Shown here one piece after another: positions 4,780 to 22,089 of a stretch of 42,687 bases of DNA. The stretch is from Cardiobacteriaceae bacterium (lineage in GTDB: Bacteria; Pseudomonadota; Gammaproteobacteria; Cardiobacteriales; Cardiobacteriaceae). The stretch's first letter is position 1; every line of letters begins with the position of its first letter. The notes beneath the pieces are model-generated. The model did no database searches, was not told the DNA's origin, and worked only from the letters and a program-made list of their open reading frames with translations. The position numbers and the translations under genes were made by a program. The stretch covers positions 1-42,687 of the forward strand of contig JAFUTP010000069.1 of NCBI GenBank assembly GCA_017484165.1. Reading direction: 5' to 3'.

Positions 4780-4959
4780 AGTTCTATCCTTTGTTTGTGT
4801 TGAAAAGAAAGCGTGGGATTGTAAGCAAAACGCCGTAGATGGCATTTTTTGCAAAAAATAGCGTTTTTATAGGAATTTATGGGAATTTTTTCGCGCAAAA
4901 ATTCAGGGACGACCTTGAATTTCTTCTTTATTTCTGGGACGACCCAGACAGGGAAAAGA

Positions 4960-5278
4960 ATGTCTTGGCTTATTTTGCTAGTTGCAGGTTTATTGGAAAT
5001 CATCTGGGCGGTGGCTTTGAAATTTAGTGATGGTTTTTCGCGCATTTTGCCAAGCCTGATAACCGTTATTGCTTATTTATTAAGCTTGCTTTTACTCGGT
5101 ATATCGCTAAAAAATTTACCGCTTGGAATTGCTTATTCAATTTGGGTGGCTATCGGAATTTTGGGAGTAGCGGTCTGTGGCGGAATATTTTTTGCGGAAA
5201 ATGTCAATGTTTTCAAAATCATCGGTACGGTTTTTATTCTTATTCGGAATAATTTTTTTGAAAATTTCAGATGCTTGA
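4960..5278 (+). pseudogene. SMR (SugE/EmrE-type) transporter, frameshifted
   Basis: A small multidrug resistance family protein: four short membrane helices, typically about 105 residues, acting as a dimeric exporter of cationic compounds. The ATG at 4960 opens MSWLILLVAGLLEIIWAVAL, with the membrane Glu14 of the family, and later shows LPLGIAYSIWVAIG. The frame breaks in the last helix. One extra base at about 5245 (TTATTCGG) changes the expected FILIGIIFLKISDA end into a hydrophilic run. Dropping that base restores a 105-residue protein ending at the TGA at 5276-5278. As read, the frame instead runs on to 5421. This is a frameshift mutation or a sequencing error. I cannot tell whether the parent is Gdx/SugE or EmrE type. 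Confidence 0.8.
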
Positions 5279-5292
5279 AGGTATATACAAAT

Positions 5293-5421
5293 ATGCAAAA
5301 TTTAATGTCAGTTGAGAAACTTAAAAATAACCTCGAAGAAATGGGAAAAGATATTTCAACTCCGATGTTTATCGCTTCGGAAGATGAAATTAACTATGTG
5401 TTTTTGGAAAGAAATTCTTGA
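5293..5421 (+). CDS. Hypothetical 42-residue protein
   Basis: A short frame with two possible ATGs (5293 and 5305) follows the SMR gene by 14 bp, with gaagg upstream at a rather long spacing. The product is hydrophilic (EKLKNNLEEMGKDIS...DEINYVFLERNS) and matches no family I recognise. It lies in the same frame as the 5' part of the SMR gene, so in the sequence as given it is fused to it. It may be a real small gene, the remnant of a larger one, or chance coding. Confidence 0.35.
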   Translation: MQNLMSVEKLKNNLEEMGKDISTPMFIASEDEINYVFLERNS

Positions 5422-12976: not shown

Positions 12977-13045
12977 ATGACGAACGAACGAACGAACGAA
13001 CGAACGAAATTATACACTGATTATCGCATCATTATTTCACGGTAG
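12977..13045 (+). CDS. Leader reading frame with tetranucleotide tract
   Basis: The ATG at 12977 has a good ribosome binding site (aaaggac, about 8 nt upstream) and opens a 22-codon frame whose first third is the CGAA repeat (M-T-N-E-R-T-N-E-R...). With seven repeats it stops at TAG 13043-13045, 9 nt before the next gene's ATG. Frame arithmetic for other copy numbers: six or nine repeats give a stop TGA at 13056-13058 that overlaps the next ATG as ATGA; five or eight give TGA at 13018-13020. The frame therefore looks like a coupling device rather than a functional peptide. Confidence 0.5.
   Translation: MTNERTNERTKLYTDYRIIISR
12981..13008 (+). repeat. CGAA x7 tetranucleotide tract
   Basis: Seven perfect tandem copies of cgaa lie just after the leader ATG. 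Tetranucleotide tracts of this kind change copy number by slipped-strand mispairing and drive phase variation in host-adapted Neisseriaceae and Pasteurellaceae. Confidence 0.9.
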
Positions 13046-13054
13046 GGGGTGTTT

Positions 13055-14359
13055 ATGACTATCTACCGTTGTAATCATTGTGGTTCTGTTGCAGAAACAA
13101 ATCTTGCTCCCAACACCACATCTAACTGCGCGAAATGTTCAAATGAAGTCAAAATTTATGATGCCGCGTTTTATGTGCAGTCTTTGTTGCAACGCTATTT
13201 TGCTTTAAACAAAGAGTTTAAACAATTACAAGAAACCCATCAGATTTTGGAAAATCAATCCAAGCAACTGCATGAACAAAATCAAGCTTTGGAAAGCCAA
13301 TTAAAAACAGGGCAAGCTGAAAACAAATCTGCTCCAAACAATAGCAAACCCAAGCTTCCGCAAGATATTGCGGATAAAATTAAATCCATTTTTAATGAAC
13401 AAGCGAATGTCAAACTGTCCGCTTTTTCCACCGACATTCGCAAAATTTTGCCTGATTTTGACCAAACAAAATATGGATTTAAGAAAAAATTCTTGGATTT
13501 TGTGCGTCAATGCGATTTTTTAGTTGTTAAAGGTGAAGCGGGTAATGCTGCGGTTTCTTTGAAAAAATCTCCTCAAAAGCAGCCTGAAAAAACGCCTGCC
13601 AAACCCAAAATCAATTTAAACGATACTGATTTATTTGCCAATCAAGAAACGGTTGAGAAAATTAAACAATATCTGAACAACAAAAATCTCACCGCGACCT
13701 TTGATTATGATGCTTTGGATATGTCTGGCTATTTCGATGAATCATCAGAAATCATCGGCGATAATTTTGCCCTATTAGAAAAACATTTGAAATCCATTCG
13801 TTATATGTATCACAACGACAAAGTGGGCTTGACGATTAATTGCGAAGATTTATCCAAAAATGAATCGCAAAAACTGCAAGAAATTTTCAAGCAACTGTTT
13901 GATTACACGATTTTTGCTAAATATTTTTATCACAATGACGACAAAAAAATTCGCATTACACTCAACACCGCTGAAAGTGTGAAAAAATTTATGTTAGGTG
14001 GCTGGTTGGAATGGTTTGCCGCCATCAAGCTTATCAAACAAGTGCATGGTAAAGGCAAAAAATTCGCCATCGCTCGTTAAGTAGTGGTCGAATATGAAAA
14101 CGGCGATAAAAACGAGTTTGATATAGTCTTTATGAGTGAAGATAACACGCCGATTTTTATCGAATGTAAATCAGGAGCATTTTGTCAGCATTTGGATAAA
14201 TTTATCCGCATTTGCAAAAAAATCAGTATACCCACAAGAAACTGGCTGGTTTTGGCCAGTGAAATCGACCAAAAACAAGCAAATGCTTTTGAAAAAATGT
14301 ACCCAGTCAGCTTCTGCGATTTGGAACACTTTTTAGAAAAAGTTAAACCGATGATTTAA
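13055..14359 (+). pseudogene. Zinc ribbon / LOTUS-like / PD-(D/E)XK nuclease, interrupted by TAA
   Basis: Residues 6-28 form a zinc ribbon (C6, C9, C25, C28) and about 44-85 a coiled coil. About 103-170 resembles an OST-HTH/LOTUS RNA-binding domain (KLSAFSTDIRKILPDFD, then YGFKKKFLDFV). Residues 315-320 (GGWLEW) supply the first acidic residue of a nuclease fold like the C-terminal domain of Card1/DUF1887 proteins. An in-frame TAA at 14078-14080 follows. The same frame then continues with NEFDIVF and PIFIECKSG, the D and ExK of the active site, to 14359. The stop thus splits the catalytic core. The second part has only a GTG at 14084 and no ribosome binding site. The start is ATG 13055 after tagggggt; a GTG at 13049 is also possible. 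It may act in RNA-linked defence, which is inference. Confidence 0.75.
13577..13588 (+). repeat. DNA-uptake-sequence-like 12-mer
   Basis: AAGCAGCCTGAA is one base from the Kingella-type uptake sequence AGGCAGCCTGAA and identical to the copy at 17007. Confidence 0.7.
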
Positions 14360-14369
14360 GGAATACACC

Positions 14370-15404
14370 ATGCAAGGAAAAATCGTCCGTTGGAATGAAG
14401 AACGCGGCTTTGGTTTTGTAAAAGAAGAAATCACGGGCACAGAAATTTTTATTCATATTTCCACCTTAAACATCCGCAATCCGCCACCAGAAATCGGTGA
14501 GGAAATCGACTTTGAAACCACTTTTGACGATAAAAAAGGCAAAACGGAAGTAAAAAAAGCAGTTTATTTAAATAGAACTGCTCCGTTATATGTTAAAAAA
14601 GAACAACACAAATATTCGTATACTAATTCAAACTCCGAAGTTAGCAATAAATATAACTTTGAAACTTGGTTTAATGAAGAAAATGGTAAAACCAAAGTAC
14701 AAAAACCAGTTTATTTAAATAGAACTGCTCCGTTATATGTTAAAAAAGAACAACACAAATATTCGCATACTAATTCAAACTCCGAAGTTAGCAATAAATA
14801 TAACTTTGAAACTTGGTTTAATGAAGAAAATGGTAAAACCAAAGTACAAAAACCAGTTTATTTAAATAGAACTGCTCCATCATCTAAAAAAGAACGAAAA
14901 AAATACTCGTCAAATCGCCAGTCTTATCAGCAAAAAACAGATAATATGCTAGGTTTGCTATTATTGATTGTTATTATAATTGTTTTGTCTTATTTCTTTG
15001 TTTTCAAAGTAAATAATCAAGACAGTATTGTTGAACAACAAGATATTACTGTTCATTCTGTTCCAAGTGATAATAGTGATGAAATTCATCGTTTATTTAC
15101 TCAACAACAAAATAATGTTTTTATTACTGGTCGTGGTGAAGTTCAAAAAGTTTTGCATGACGATAATGAGGGGGCTCGTCATCAAAGATTTATTTTACAA
15201 TTATCGAATGGACAAACTTTATTGATTGCCCATAATATTGATTTAGCCGATCGTCTGCCTAATTTACAAAAAGGTGATGAAGTGTCGTTTGCAGGCGATT
15301 ATATATATAACGATAAAGGCGGTTTAATACATTGGACGCACAAAGACCCACGCGGACAACACAAAGACGGTTATTTAATGTATCAAGGAAAAATTTATCA
15401 ATAA
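14370..15404 (+). CDS. Cold-shock domain / membrane segment / DUF3465 fusion protein
   Basis: Residues 1-70 are a cold-shock nucleic-acid-binding domain (GKIVRWNEERGFGFVKEE, then EIFIHIS). Residues 65-171 are two near-identical 49-residue repeats plus the start of a third. About 192-214 is a single membrane helix (LGLLLLIVIIIVLSYFFVF). The end from about 250 matches DUF3465 (GRGEVQKVLHDDN...GLIHWTHKDPRGQHKDGYL). The first domain should be cytoplasmic and the last outside the inner membrane. The ATG lies 10 bp after the nuclease frame, with aagga upstream, so the two genes form an operon. A nucleic-acid binder tied to a membrane next to a predicted RNA-binding nuclease suggests a joint role, but no function is known to me. 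Confidence 0.75.
   Translation: MQGKIVRWNEERGFGFVKEEITGTEIFIHISTLNIRNPPPEIGEEIDFETTFDDKKGKTEVKKAVYLNRTAPLYVKKEQHKYSYTNSNSEVSNKYNFETWFNEENGKTKVQKPVYLNRTAPLYVKKEQHKYSHTNSNSEVSNKYNFETWFNEENGKTKVQKPVYLNRTAPSSKKERKKYSSNRQSYQQKTDNMLGLLLLIVIIIVLSYFFVFKVNNQDSIVEQQDITVHSVPSDNSDEIHRLFTQQQNNVFITGRGEVQKVLHDDNEGARHQRFILQLSNGQTLLIAHNIDLADRLPNLQKGDEVSFAGDYIYNDKGGLIHWTHKDPRGQHKDGYLMYQGKIYQ
14562..14880 (+). repeat. 147-bp tandem repeat within the cold-shock fusion gene
   Basis: Units start at 14562, 14709 and 14856 (partial). The two full copies differ by very few bases. Each encodes 49 residues ending in FNEENGKTKVQKPVYLNRTAP, which resembles the end of the gene's own cold-shock domain (FDDKKGKTEVKKAVYLNRTAP). 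The array therefore seems to have grown from that segment. Confidence 0.9.
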
Positions 15405-15539
15405 TTGCAGCAAGGTATACTTTCCATCAGCAATTTCATTCGGTTTTGGCGCTGTTTCTTGTCCCCATAAATACTAGGAAAGCACTTTCTCTGCATAGTT
15501 ACCTTGCAAAGACAATGGTTGAACGGTTTTGTTTGTCAT
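15375..15539 (-). pseudogene. Remnant of an unidentified minus-strand gene
   Basis: An ATG at 15539 with AGGAG upstream opens a frame (MTNKTVQPLSLQGNYAEKVL) that meets TAG after 21 residues. It then continues in the same frame with protein-like sequence (YLWGQETAPKPNEIADGKY) until it runs into the end of the cold-shock fusion gene. The good start site and plausible residues on both sides of the stop suggest a decayed gene truncated by the neighbour's arrival. I do not recognise the family. Confidence 0.45.
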
Positions 15540-15583
15540 AAATAAACTCCTATATGTTAAAAAATGTAAGAATAATCTTACTG

Positions 15584-16180: not shown

Positions 16181-16983
16181 ATGAACTTATGGACGCAAAA
16201 AAGCATAGATTTAGCGGGGCAAAGCAATTATTTAGACCAGCTTTATCGCATTTATCCGATGTCTGTTAATTTACGCCGTGAATTGTCTTTACAAACCCAA
16301 AATGAAATTCGCAATTATCTGAACAACAAAGATGGTAAAAATTTATTGAGAGTCTTATTAAAACAAGAAATTTTCCCTATTAAAGACAGTTATGTCTCCT
16401 ACTTAAAACGCGACAAAACCGCCCTTGAACGCGCAATCCTGCAACCGTTAGCCGCTTGGCTGGTATGTTAATTGAAATGGGTTTTGATGAAATTTTAGAT
16501 AAAACCACAACCCCCAAAGAAACCAATCGTCAAATTGGACCGATGTTTAAGAATTGGTTAGCAAGTGGTGTACTGGGTGTGCATGTTACGGATAATCCTG
16601 ATGAATTTTTGAATTATCAAAGCAATATTATTTTGAATACAAGTGATAGCGCGATGGCAAATTTTGCCAAAAAGCATTTGGGCTATCAACATCATAAAGG
16701 TCTTGATTTTATTGGAAAATTTAATCAAACGATGATTATTGGTGAAGCTAAATTGTTAAGTGATTTTGGCGGTCATCAAAACGCACAATTCAATGACGCT
16801 ATTGCCATTTTACGCACGGAATTATTACCTACTGAGCACAAAGTAAAAACAATCGCGATATTGGACGGTGTTTTGTATATCAAAAGCAATAATAAAATGT
16901 TTAATGAAATTTCAGCTTTTGCAGACGATGAAGTAGTAGTATCCGCGGTTTTATTGCGTGATTATTTATTTTCGGTGTCATAA
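16181..16983 (+). pseudogene. Type II restriction endonuclease, frameshifted
   Basis: The ATG at 16181 follows aaggat and starts a protein typical of type II restriction enzymes. The frame breaks near residue 84: read straight through it ends at 16471, but from about 16431 the +2 frame continues with RNPATVSRLAGMLIEMGFDE and runs to 16983. Removing one GC from acgcgcaat (16430-16434) joins both parts into a 266-residue protein. The second part holds a PD-(D/E)XK-like centre (GLDFIGKF...IIGEAKLLSDFGG). Its stop overlaps the methyltransferase ATG (TAATG), showing they form one R-M operon. The recognition site is unknown. A dinucleotide duplication is the simplest explanation; a sequencing error is possible. 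Confidence 0.75.
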
Positions 16984-18080
16984 TGATAGAGTTAAGTTAT
17001 TCCAACAAGCAGCCTGAAAGTCAGATTTTGCAACAATCGGCACAAATTTCGCCTATGAAATTGGACGAAACGCTATCGCTTTTGTTTGCATGCGATAATT
17101 TTCATGCATTATCTGTCCTGCTTAACAGCGGTTATCAAAAACGCATTGATTTAATTTACATTGACCCACCGTATAACACCCAACAGGTTTTTACCGTTGA
17201 TAATGACCGAATAAGCACCATTAGTCGTGCCAATAGCGGTGTTATTGCGTATTCCGATAAATTAAGTATGAACGAATATTTAGAATTTATGCGTGAACGA
17301 TTGATTTTAATGCGTGAATTGTTATCGGAATGCGGTTCTATTTATGTGCATATTGATAATAAAGTTGGGCATTATCTTAAAATTATTATGGACGAAATTT
17401 TTGGTGCGGAAAATTTCAAAAACGATATTGCACGAATTAAATCCAATCCCAAAAATTTTGCTCGCCGTGCGTTTGGTAATGAAAAAGACATGATTTTGTT
17501 TTATGCAAAAAATGCCAAGAAAAATATATTTAACAACATCACAATGCCATTAAGCGATGAAGATAAAGTAGAAATGTTTCACAAACTTGATGAAAATGGA
17601 CGGCGATATAACACCGTGCCTGTTCATGCACCAGGTGAAACACAAAATGGTGAAACAGGCGCAATGTGGCGTGGGCAATATCCACCAAAAGGCAGACATT
17701 GGCGTAGTTCGCCTAATGAATTGGATAAATTAGACGCGCAAGGCTTATTGGAATGGTCTAAAAACGGAGTGCCACGCATTAAGAAATTTGCCGATGAACA
17801 CAAAGGCAAAAAAATTCAGGATATTTGGCAATACAAAGACCCAGCATACCCCATTTATCCAACTGAAAAAAATACAGAAATGCTGAAAATGATTATTCAG
17901 CAATCGTCTAATCCTAGTTCCATCATATTGGATTGTTTTGCGGGTAGTGGTTCAACTTTATGGACCGCGCAATCTTTGCAAAGACGCTGGATTGGTATGG
18001 ATATTTCTAATATTGCCATTTCAATCATACAAAAACGCATGGGATTATTTCCTGTGCAAGTGATTGAATGCAGTAAATAA
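16983..18080 (+). CDS. Site-specific DNA methyltransferase (beta-type, DPPY)
   Basis: An S-adenosylmethionine-dependent amino-methyltransferase, most likely adenine-N6, of 365 residues. Catalytic motif IV IYIDPPYNTQQ is near residue 60 and the cofactor motif I LDCFAGSGSTLWTAQ near 319. The order IV before I marks the beta group. Between them is a long target-recognition region. It starts inside the stop of the upstream restriction gene, so it is the cognate modification enzyme, and it is intact while its partner is broken. An uptake-like 12-mer lies in its first codons at 17007. Confidence 0.9.
   Translation: MIELSYSNKQPESQILQQSAQISPMKLDETLSLLFACDNFHALSVLLNSGYQKRIDLIYIDPPYNTQQVFTVDNDRISTISRANSGVIAYSDKLSMNEYLEFMRERLILMRELLSECGSIYVHIDNKVGHYLKIIMDEIFGAENFKNDIARIKSNPKNFARRAFGNEKDMILFYAKNAKKNIFNNITMPLSDEDKVEMFHKLDENGRRYNTVPVHAPGETQNGETGAMWRGQYPPKGRHWRSSPNELDKLDAQGLLEWSKNGVPRIKKFADEHKGKKIQDIWQYKDPAYPIYPTEKNTEMLKMIIQQSSNPSSIILDCFAGSGSTLWTAQSLQRRWIGMDISNIAISIIQKRMGLFPVQVIECSK
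17007..17018 (+). repeat. DNA-uptake-sequence-like 12-mer
   Basis: AAGCAGCCTGAA, identical to the copy at 13577 and one base from the Kingella-type uptake sequence, read here as coding sequence (KQPES). Confidence 0.7.
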
Positions 18081-18127: not shown

Positions 18128-19174
18128 ATGCAAACTCATTTAGATCGTAAAGATACAATTAATTTAGGAAGTTTTTATACACCTAAATTTTGTGTTGAAA
18201 TTGCTTATCAAATATTAGAAAAAGCAACTGATTTAAATAATTTTTTATTATTGGATAACAGTTGTGGTTATGGTGATTTTTTTATTAAAGAATTAAAATA
18301 TTTAGGTGCAGATATTGACAGTCGAGCATTAGAAAAAGTCAATAAAAATATTCAAACTATTTGCACAAATTCTTTATTTGAAGTTAGTAGAAAAAAATAC
18401 AATATTTCAGATAATGAAAAATTGATTATCATCGGTAATCCACCTTACAATGATAAAACTTCTATCATTAGAAATGATATTAAACAAGATTTATTTCAAA
18501 TAGATGAAAACTTAAAACACCGTGATTTAGGGATTTCTTTTTTGCGTTCTTATAATATATTGCAGCCTGAATTTATTTGTATTTTACACCCATTATCTTA
18601 TTTGATTAAAAAGACAAATTTTAATGCTTTAAAAGAATTTAATAAAAATTATCGTTTGATTGACGGTGTTATTGTTAGTTCAGAAATTTTCACACCTAAT
18701 TCGAGTACATTTTTTCCAATTATTATTGCATTATATCAAAAAAATAAACAAGGTATGGATTATGAATTTATTAAAAATTATTCATTCAAAATTTATCCTA
18801 ATAACAAAATACTTCGTTTGAATAATTTTGATTTTATCAATAATTATGTTCAAAAATATCCAAACCATAAAGATACAAGACAAGAAGTCGCTTATTTTTA
18901 TACCTTACGAGATATAAATGCATTAAAAAGAAGTAAAACTTTTTTAGATAAACCGCAGGCAAATGCTATTAAAGTTTTTGCAGACAATTTAAAATATTAT
19001 TATTATATTCACCACTTTAAACAATTCGCTCATCAATTACCATTTTATTTTGGTAATTTAGATATTTTTATTAACAATGAAGAATTTTTATCTATTGCAG
19101 ATGATTTTTCTCAATTAAAACCAAACAATAAAGTTCAAATGTACTTTGAAAGATTATTTAAGGAGTATGTATGA
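18128..19174 (+). CDS. Adenine-N6 DNA methyltransferase (gamma-type, NPPY)
   Basis: 348 residues with the gamma-group order: an N-terminal GSFYTPKFCVEIAYQIL region, motif I LLDNSCGYGDFF near residue 42-53, and catalytic motif IV IIGNPPYND near 102-110. A target-recognition region rich in Asn, Lys and Tyr follows. It methylates adenine in a specific but unknown site. Aaggact precedes the ATG. Its stop overlaps the next start (ATGA), so the 232-residue protein downstream is its likely restriction partner. The segment is notably more AT-rich than the surrounding genes. Confidence 0.88.
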   Translation: MQTHLDRKDTINLGSFYTPKFCVEIAYQILEKATDLNNFLLLDNSCGYGDFFIKELKYLGADIDSRALEKVNKNIQTICTNSLFEVSRKKYNISDNEKLIIIGNPPYNDKTSIIRNDIKQDLFQIDENLKHRDLGISFLRSYNILQPEFICILHPLSYLIKKTNFNALKEFNKNYRLIDGVIVSSEIFTPNSSTFFPIIIALYQKNKQGMDYEFIKNYSFKIYPNNKILRLNNFDFINNYVQKYPNHKDTRQEVAYFYTLRDINALKRSKTFLDKPQANAIKVFADNLKYYYYIHHFKQFAHQLPFYFGNLDIFINNEEFLSIADDFSQLKPNNKVQMYFERLFKEYV

Positions 19175-19869
19175 AATACGAATTTCCATTAAGCCAAGCA
19201 ACTGGAAAAATCAGAATTAAAGAAAGGCTTGCTTTTTCTGATTATGGGCAACCTGTTGCTCCTACTAAAACCATTATCACGCCAAAGCATTATATTGAAT
19301 GGCAAATAGGGTATGATAGAATTGTAGAAAAAAATGAAACCGTACATTTTGTTGGTGCAAATGGTAAAAATAAACAAATTTATGAATTAAGTGAATTTTT
19401 GCAATTTGGATTGCAAGAAAATATCATCAAATATGATGAATTAAAAGAATTACGCAATACTATAAATCGTTATAGTATTTTTATTGATGAAAAGGAAAAA
19501 ATAAATAGAGAGCATTTTATTTCAGAAAATATCAATAACATAGAATTTTTGAAGTCAAGAGTTTCTTATCCGCTTTTAATTCACAAATTTCAAATTCAAG
19601 ATAGTTTGTGTGAAATTATTGTGCGTGAAAAACAAAGAGCAGTTGGTACAATGCCTATGCTGTATTTTTGTGTACCATTAAGTGTATTGCAAGATAAAGA
19701 CGGAAAATACAGTTTTATAGGTAGAAATATCAAAAGCAAAGAAAATGGTTATTTGTTAATTAACTCAAATAATATCAAAATGTTTATGAAAATGTTTCAA
19801 ATATTTGGTATGTTGAGTGTAAATCATCAAAAAGATTGTTTGTCAATTTTAGATTATTTATTGAAATAA
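19171..19869 (+). CDS. Probable restriction endonuclease partner (unrecognised family)
   Basis: A 232-residue protein whose start overlaps the end of the upstream N6-methyltransferase by 4 bp, with agga upstream. This tight link is typical of a restriction gene. The sequence has no clear PD-(D/E)XK, HNH or GIY-YIG motif that I can point to. Visible blocks are QATGKIRIKERLAFSDYGQ near the start, KHYIEWQIGYDRIVEKNETV, and EIIVREKQRAVGTMPMLYFC. It appears complete, ending in SILDYLLK. The assignment rests on context; it could also be an accessory protein. Confidence 0.55.
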   Translation: MKYEFPLSQATGKIRIKERLAFSDYGQPVAPTKTIITPKHYIEWQIGYDRIVEKNETVHFVGANGKNKQIYELSEFLQFGLQENIIKYDELKELRNTINRYSIFIDEKEKINREHFISENINNIEFLKSRVSYPLLIHKFQIQDSLCEIIVREKQRAVGTMPMLYFCVPLSVLQDKDGKYSFIGRNIKSKENGYLLINSNNIKMFMKMFQIFGMLSVNHQKDCLSILDYLLK

Positions 19870-19873
19870 TTTT

Positions 19874-19888
19874 TTCAGGTAGCCTGAA
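19874..19888. repeat. Exact Eikenella-type DNA uptake sequence
   Basis: TTCAGGTAGCCTGAA contains AGGCTACCTGAA on the minus strand (19874-19885), the uptake sequence dialect reported for Eikenella. It abuts the ATG at 19889. Confidence 0.75.
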
Positions 19889-20923
19889 ATGAATATTTTT
19901 TCTAATTTACCAAATGGAATATTAAAAATGATGAATAATGCAAAATCAACACGCAATAAAACAATCAATACTTCTATTGAAGAAGGACAAGACTATTTAA
20001 ATCAATGTGTTTCTATTTCTGATAAAGTAGAAAACATACAAACAATTAAAAATAAAACTATTTATGGCGATTTATTTAATATTATTCCTATGCTACCTGA
20101 AAAAAGTATGGATTTAATTATTGCCGACCCCCCATATAATTTAACCAAAAAATTTGGTGAAAATACTTTCAATAAGACAAATAATGATGAATATGAACAA
20201 TATACTCGTGATTGGTTAAACTTGGTTGTTCCATTATTAAAAGATAATGGTTCAATTTATATTTGTTGCGACTGGGAAAGTAGTTTAATTATTGGGCGTG
20301 TTTTATCGGAATATTTAACGGTACGCAATCGTATTTCTTGGCAAAGAGAGAAAGGGCGTGGTGCAAAATCAAATTGGAAAAATGGAATGGAAGATATTTG
20401 GTTTGCTACAAAATCAAAACAATACACATTTAATTTAGATGCAATAAAAGTGCGTAGAAAAGTGATTGCTCCGTATAAAATTGACGGCAAGCCAAAAGAT
20501 TGGACTGAAGATATGAATGGTAATTATCGTGATACTTGTCCGTCTAATTTTTGGGACGATATAACCATTCCCTTTTGGTCTATGCCTGAAAATACCGCTC
20601 ATCCAACGCAAAAACCTGAAAAATTGATTGCTAAATTGATTTTAGCAAGTTCAAATCAAGGAGATATAGTTTTTGACCCTTTTTTAGGTTCAGGTACTAC
20701 TTCGGTTGTGGCTAAAAAATTAGGACGGAACTATATTGGCATAGAAAAAGAACCACAATATTGTATTTGGGCAGAACAACGCTTAATAATGGCAGAAAAT
20801 AATCATTATATTCAAGGGTATACAAATGGTGTATTTTGGGAAAGAAATTCACTCTCTGAACAAAATGGTCAAAAAAGGCTAAATGTGCAAAGCAAAAATG
20901 AAGAGTTTGTTTTAATTGGATAA
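19889..20923 (+). CDS. Adenine/cytosine-N4 DNA methyltransferase (beta-type, DPPY)
   Basis: 344 residues. Motif IV LIIADPPYNLTKKFG is near 77-91 and motif I VFDPFLGSGTTSVVAKKLG near 260-280, followed by NYIGIEKE. This is the beta order. AHPTQKPEKL, typical just before motif I, is present. The ATG at 19889 touches the uptake sequence and has no ribosome binding site. The ATG at 19928 (MMNNAKS), after tggaat, is a credible alternative 13 codons later. It precedes a restriction-type gene by 11 bp and looks intact. Specificity is unknown. Confidence 0.88.
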   Translation: MNIFSNLPNGILKMMNNAKSTRNKTINTSIEEGQDYLNQCVSISDKVENIQTIKNKTIYGDLFNIIPMLPEKSMDLIIADPPYNLTKKFGENTFNKTNNDEYEQYTRDWLNLVVPLLKDNGSIYICCDWESSLIIGRVLSEYLTVRNRISWQREKGRGAKSNWKNGMEDIWFATKSKQYTFNLDAIKVRRKVIAPYKIDGKPKDWTEDMNGNYRDTCPSNFWDDITIPFWSMPENTAHPTQKPEKLIAKLILASSNQGDIVFDPFLGSGTTSVVAKKLGRNYIGIEKEPQYCIWAEQRLIMAENNHYIQGYTNGVFWERNSLSEQNGQKRLNVQSKNEEFVLIG

Positions 20924-20934
20924 GGAGAGCAAAA

Positions 20935-22089
20935 TTGTACTACAAAGCAAAAATTGATGAACTTGTATCTTTTATTCGTGAAAATAACGGCATTTCTGAT
21001 AAATCAAAATTAACAGATTTAGTTAAAACAAGATTTAATCTAACAAAAGATAGAAGTGTCTATTATTGTAATTTTTTTGCTATTCGTTTTTGTAAAGCAA
21101 ATAATCAAACTTTTAGTAATACAGTGCTATCATTATCTTCATTACAGAAATACGATAATAAACCATTTATTGTTTGTTTAGTTACAAATACTGAAAACTA
21201 TTTATTTTTGGCAAATACAACATTTTTAAATAAAATAAGTCATTCATCACAAACATTAAGAGTAGATAACATTAAAGGAAGTTTTAATGGAAGTGATATA
21301 ATGCGAAATTTTGAAGAATTTAAAAATATTCCAGAAAACTTTGAATTTTTATTTACTTCTCATGAAAATTATTCTTTTGAAGATAATTTAATTAGATTAG
21401 TGGAAAATACAAATAATATTTCTGCAACAGGTAGTAAATTTATTCCTAATGATATTGAATTGGAAAATATTAAAAATTCAATTCAACGAGCAAATGATTT
21501 TATTCATTCTAACTGTTTTAATCTTTTAGAAAATGAATTAGAACAGAAAGTCAGTAGTGTTTCATCTGAAATTGCAATCGCAGCATTTATTGAAAATGTT
21601 AATTTAAGGGGAAGAATTATTGAATACTTAATTACATCTCCTAATGATTTAAAAGTAGATTTAATTCAGGCATTGCATAATAATCAACCACTGCCTAAAA
21701 TTTATACCGCAGATAAATTAGGAGATTATGAAAAAATATTTCCTGATTTTCATACTCAAACAGATATAAAAACAAAAATAATGTTTTTATCAAGCAACCC
21801 CAAAGGTTACAATATTGATAAATTATTAGAATTTTTATCAAAAGAAAACACTGTTTATTTAATATTTATTGTTGCTATTAACGAACAAAAAGAAATAAAC
21901 ACGCAATTATGTTCAATTTTTAATCAATAATTACTCAAAGGGACACGAATAATAAAACATTGGGCTGGTAGAAATTCTCGTGGAGTTACACAATTTGACG
22001 GTAAAAATCTTATTGAAATTGTAACAGATTTTGATAATACAATTAACATAGATAAATCTATAAAGTTTATCGATGACTTTTTGAAATAA
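20935..22089 (+). pseudogene. Restriction endonuclease interrupted by in-frame TAA
   Basis: Translation probably begins at TTG 20935 (MYYKAKIDELVSFI) with AAGGAG 8 nt before it. The frame runs 331 residues to TAA at 21928-21930. In exactly the same frame it continues LLKGTRIIKHWAGRNSRGV, then TQFDGKNLIEIV and IDDFLK, to a TAA at 22087-22089. The HWAGRNSRGVTQFDG block is the kind of conserved C-terminal motif seen in restriction enzymes, so the first stop is most likely a nonsense mutation removing the last 52 residues. It follows the third methyltransferase by 11 bp and is its likely partner. Extremely AT-rich. The family is not recognised with certainty. Confidence 0.65.

Follow-up and report, generated by a model that had tools for sequence, protein, structure and literature searches.

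A probably decaying Can2/Card1-like nuclease gene with a LOTUS domain, next to an apparently unrelated gene for a cold-shock/DUF3465 membrane protein

The Can2 and Card1 nucleases are CARF-gated helpers of type III CRISPR systems. Can2 is a CRISPR-associated defence nuclease that acts as a cA4-activated DNase/RNase, and its residues E276 and D278 are essential (PMC7969007). Almost all bacterial OST-HTH domains are fused to DUF88 (Anantharaman 2010, PMC2848206), and the CoCoNuT type IV restriction systems bring together coiled coils, zinc ribbons, cold-shock domains and PD-(D/E)XK nucleases (PMC11090510).

The window analyzed here, a stretch of 42,687 nucleotides from a Cardiobacteriaceae bacterium, contains two adjacent genes, A and B, that combine domains of these kinds. 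An earlier note on this DNA had described them as a two-gene, RNA-linked defence module. The features of gene A and of the short reading frame that precedes it are as follows.

12977..13045, plus strand: short open reading frame of 22 codons that contains the (ACGA)7.2 tract; its end lies 9 bases ahead of the gene A ATG
13055..14080, plus strand: N-terminal open part of gene A, 341 aa, up to a TAA
Gene A residues 1-35: zinc-ribbon-like CxxC/CxxC motif
Gene A residues about 41-90: coiled coil
Gene A residues 104-159: OST-HTH/LOTUS domain (Pfam PF12872)
Gene A residues about 190-305: mid domain
Gene A C-terminal part, followed by the TAA: start of a PD-(D/E)XK nuclease (GGWLEW)
14078..14080, plus strand: in-frame TAA interrupting the nuclease domain, at a place where the frame of homologues is open
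14081..14359, plus strand: continuation of the nuclease frame over 92 codons, which include the E.D and ECKSG motifs

The LOTUS-like domain that had been claimed for gene A was recovered by Pfam above the cut-off (27.1 bits against 23.8), and this wHTH probably binds RNA. The nearest solved LOTUS structure by sequence is NE0665 (2kpm), a weak match. The zinc ribbon claimed for the same protein is visible as two CxxC motifs, but its Pfam scores are sub-threshold and support it weakly.

To place the nuclease, the gene A protein was read through the stop. Its C-terminal part matched the PADLOC profile CARF_PDDEXK (1e-11), as did all of the gene A family members tested (7/7, window included). The match to Pfam Card1_endonuc was just below the cut-off (22.5 against 26.4), and relatives L090, L091 and L095 match this family (PF09002) above it. 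A family profile (A2), built from eight members, was compared with the PDB and matched Can2 (6.4e-7), Card1 (9.5e-7) and VC1899 (1.3e-4), and these matches (7bdv, 6wxw, 1xmx) cover the nuclease region alone. The single-sequence model of the gene A nuclease (pLDDT 46.6) has the expected alpha-beta-beta-beta-alpha-beta order, and Foldseek ranked Can2 at the top for this low-confidence model; for the mid domain, the single-sequence model (pLDDT 46.6) was too poor for a fold assignment. A CARF domain is absent from gene A, since the PDB and PADLOC matches are confined to the nuclease or C-terminal part, and no match to DUF88 was found with Pfam.

Relatives of gene A were found in 13 of 369 class genomes, window included, of which about 8 of the others are strong; the family was found in roughly 3% of the sampled Gammaproteobacteria. 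Most strong full-length members consist of a zinc ribbon, a coiled coil, the mid domain and the nuclease, in about 320-360 aa, and members without LOTUS include L038, L090-L093 and L095. The LOTUS domain was found in two members of the family, the window copy and one from L008 (27.2 bits), a goat-rumen MAG labelled Rhodocyclaceae; the LOTUS-nuclease gene of L008 runs off the contig end, and a search of the remaining L008 genome did not recover its missing rest. In one homologue (G003; L040:6641-7954) TerD replaces the usual front (PF02342, 73.5 bits), and in L054 and L059 the zinc ribbon and coiled coil stand without the nuclease, ahead of a hydrophobic segment recognized by eye. Most relatives are uninterrupted, for example those in G001 and G003. 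The homologue in G002 (L039:8359-9390) carries one internal TGA, at a position other than that of the window stop, so that two of the four nuclease-family copies in the window's bacterial family carry an interruption, each at its own site.

The relatives mostly adjoin housekeeping genes, and their neighbors differ from one to the next: gyrA with a methyltransferase, serS, a photolyase-related gene, a histidine kinase, yggT and band-7. These neighborhoods do not form a consistent defence-island pattern. A type II Cas9 gene lies a few genes downstream of the homologue in G213 (L093:5485-12001), and no type III CRISPR genes were noticed among the ORFs within a few kb of the homologues or by Pfam on selected neighbors. 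A viral or plasmid origin of gene A was also considered and was rejected, as no relatives were found in IMG/VR or PLSDB.

The window copy itself lies at the edge of an accessory block. As the earlier note had said, restriction-modification genes are adjacent, and three type II systems lie downstream.

16181..16983, plus strand: Tsp45I-like restriction endonuclease, frame-split in two overlapping frames (16181-16471 and 16456-16983)
16983..18080, plus strand: N6/N4 DNA methyltransferase of the Tsp45I-like system
18128..21930, plus strand: two further type II restriction-modification systems, one a methyltransferase with an R.Pab1-family enzyme, the other a methyltransferase with an endonuclease

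The block that the earlier note had called transferred is AT-rich: GC content is 33-38% at 13-18 kb and 24-32% at 18-22 kb, and the flanks are mostly at 38-48%. Within the window's family prpF, the left neighbor, was recovered from just one further genome, so that a comparison with sister genomes could not reveal an empty insertion site. Neisseriaceae, which had been proposed as the host, appears not to fit this DNA by kinship counts; in the genome set used, the window's order comprises 32 genomes in four families. Between gene B and the restriction-modification cluster, a short, degraded-looking frame with an internal stop was noticed by eye on the minus strand (15404-15540). Elsewhere in the window, a Guanidine-II (mini-ykkC) riboswitch (4901-4947, 42.9 bits) overlaps the start of an SMR transporter ORF listed as 4879-5421, so this gene probably starts downstream of 4947.

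The repeat tract reported upstream of gene A is present, as (ACGA)7.2 at 12980-13008. An in-frame fusion of the tract to gene A was considered and rejected, since none of the three repeat phases gives one. In one of the two alternative phases the stop of the short ORF overlaps the gene A ATG, and translational coupling to gene A could therefore vary. The ATG-tract-GAAATTATACACT cassette occurs at one other place in the window genome, where a second ATG-(ACGA)n-GAAATTATACACT copy lies on another contig ahead of a short open frame (L103:1495-1752, G000:C42).

The Card1-like nuclease gene of the earlier note is of the Can2/Card1 type by profiles but is not one open frame. The gene A frame contains a single TAA (14078-14080) and is then open until 14359. 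The stop leaves LOTUS and the mid domain on one side and the catalytic half on the other: the E.D pair and the ECK motif, which are invariant across the family, lie downstream of the TAA in the window, and family comparison shows that the invariant nuclease residues are all retained on the two sides of it. Because the stop falls inside the nuclease fold, this copy is probably inactive as assembled, and nuclease function has probably been lost in this genome. The segment at 14081-14359 could be a separate reading frame that starts at GTG 14084, or it could be dead.

If the segment is translated, whether translation reinitiates at GTG 14084 or reads through the TAA, gene A might be functional as assembled, as a two-piece nuclease with expression perhaps varied by the tract. 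The retention of every invariant catalytic residue after the stop, the position of the GTG 4 bases past it, and the overlap of the leader stop with the gene A start in one repeat phase would suit such an arrangement. We nevertheless regard it as improbable: GTG 14084 has no Shine-Dalgarno-like sequence ahead of it, the homologues are single-chain proteins, no repeat phase opens the tract frame into gene A, and the neighboring Tsp45I gene is split too. An unlikely, though more credible, alternative is that the stop arose in sequencing or assembly and that gene A encodes an intact LOTUS nuclease. The window genome is a draft in 77 contigs that is 86.6% complete, so that errors could account for the TAA as well as for the Tsp45I split, and gene A could be whole; the catalytic residues are intact, and the homologue in another draft (G002) likewise has one stop. 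On the other hand, other long genes of the window are open (e.g. 803, 723, 554 and 383 aa), and both split genes fall within 3 kb of each other in the accessory block.

Gene B follows gene A directly.

14370..15404, plus strand: gene B, 344 aa
Gene B residues 1-56: cold-shock domain (Pfam, 36 bits)
Gene B, after the cold-shock domain: repeated linker
14533..14878, plus strand: 147-bp tandem repeat inside gene B, 2.4 copies, in frame
Gene B residues about 192-213: membrane helix, placed by eye
Gene B residues 235-344: DUF3465 (PF11948, 153 bits against a cut-off of 25)

Both domains that had been claimed for the partner gene, the cold-shock domain and DUF3465, were thus confirmed by Pfam, and RNP1-like (RGFGFV) and RNP2-like (IFIHIS) motifs can be recognized by eye in the former. 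Through the 147-bp repeat, the last stretch of the cold-shock part is present more than once, together with the linker. Basic residues precede the membrane helix, which suggests that the DUF3465 part is periplasmic. The DUF3465 model (pLDDT 61) gave Foldseek matches to OB folds at E of about 3e-3, and an OB fold for this domain is suggestive only.

DUF3465 was found in 44 of the 369 class genomes, window included, in 52 of the 57 genomes of one other family, and in a few phage records and plasmids; in each set the matches are restricted to the DUF3465 part. The stand-alone proteins have a membrane helix followed by DUF3465, no cold-shock motif was seen in any of 40 other DUF3465 proteins inspected, and the fusion of the two domains was found only in the window. 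Cold-shock domains fused to DUF1294 were present in three scanned proteins of the window's family (L013, L016 and L017, from sister genera). Since this family fuses cold-shock domains to DUF1294 or to PF00545, gene B looks like a further product of a modular fusion pattern. The PF00545 case, in the same bacterial family (G005, L035:1495-2169), joins a cold-shock domain and a hydrophobic segment to a guanyl-type ribonuclease, and may be a nucleic-acid binder that is anchored in the membrane and exports its RNase part.

Genes A and B lie on the same strand, 10 bases apart, with a Shine-Dalgarno-like AAGGA ahead of gene B, an arrangement that suits co-transcription. Together with the restriction-modification neighbors, and with the role of Can2 as a CRISPR-associated defence nuclease (PMC7969007), this spacing is what favors the two genes as an RNA-linked anti-phage module, in which the LOTUS nuclease would work with the cold-shock membrane protein. 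Their distribution argues otherwise. Among the 369 class genomes, none but that of the window had matches to both gene A and DUF3465. In two genomes of sister genera the relatives are unlinked, being more than 600 kb apart in G001 and on different contigs in G002. Neither gene was found in a same-genus genome (G010, 72% complete), and the L008 genome yielded no DUF3465. Across the class sample and the sister-genus genomes the survey found no second pairing, and the module proposed in the earlier note was rejected on this distribution, by the survey criterion that the note itself had set. The near-universal presence of DUF3465 in the family of 57 genomes fits a housekeeping role, and the stop in gene A also weighs against a working module, which we consider very improbable, even more so than the two-piece nuclease. 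A young functional pair may still exist, because the arrangement is known from one genome only.

We therefore favor, with moderate confidence, the reading that gene A encodes a Can2/Card1-like nuclease without CARF, probably in decay, into which an RNA-binding domain has been swapped, and that it lies beside the gene of an unrelated membrane protein predicted to bind nucleic acid. Two unrelated nucleic-acid genes would then adjoin on the margin of the AT-rich cluster of restriction-modification genes. The sparse gene A family carries the Can2/Card1 catalytic half with a zinc ribbon and coiled coil, here joined by LOTUS, in the place of CARF. In an intact copy, the N-terminal part would recognize nucleic acid, which would be structured RNA where LOTUS is present; dimerization would involve the coiled coil as well as the mid domain; and the nuclease would nick or cut nucleic acid. 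Gene B, with a putatively cytoplasmic cold-shock domain and a putatively periplasmic DUF3465, is likely to engage nucleic acid at the envelope.

The domain combination of gene A is unusual. The earlier note knew of no described system with the combination of the two genes. In the literature searched, no fusion of LOTUS to a Can2-type nuclease was found; as this literature consisted of open-access papers, the absence is weak evidence of novelty. A broader proposal, which we advance tentatively and think rather unlikely, is that the intact copies of the family include a LOTUS-guided Can2-type nuclease activated by the direct binding of structured RNA and not by a cyclic nucleotide, a one-protein RNA-sensing defence or stress nuclease for which zinc ribbon, LOTUS and TerD would serve as swappable sensors. 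If true, the Can2/Card1 catalytic half would be coupled to other triggers outside CRISPR, through zinc-ribbon, LOTUS or TerD fronts, and the chromosomal gene A family would be a source of candidate direct RNA sensors. The copy in the window carries lower weight here, as it is probably broken.

Compared with the described systems, the locus resembles CoCoNuT in having a coiled coil, a zinc ribbon, a cold-shock domain and a PD-(D/E)XK nuclease in one defence setting, but no McrB/McrC GTPase genes were seen at the window locus, and LOTUS, present in gene A, is absent from the text of the CoCoNuT paper (PMC11090510). Gene B shares an N-terminal cold-shock domain followed by a membrane part with the cold-shock/DUF1294 membrane proteins, from which it differs by having DUF3465 instead and the 147-bp in-frame repeat; with the stand-alone DUF3465 proteins it shares the order of membrane helix and DUF3465, but those proteins have no N-terminal cold-shock domain. 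As in the bacterial OST-HTH fusions to the LK-nuclease (DUF88), a LOTUS wHTH is joined to a nuclease in gene A, but this nuclease is a Can2-type PD-(D/E)XK enzyme and not DUF88. The closest likeness in the catalytic part is to Can2, Card1 and VC1899 (DUF1887), with which the gene A family shares the PD-(D/E)XK nuclease and its GxWxE, E.D and ECK motifs. It differs from them in that the window copy is interrupted and in that the family, being without CARF, has an N-terminus made of a zinc ribbon and coiled coil, plus LOTUS or TerD.
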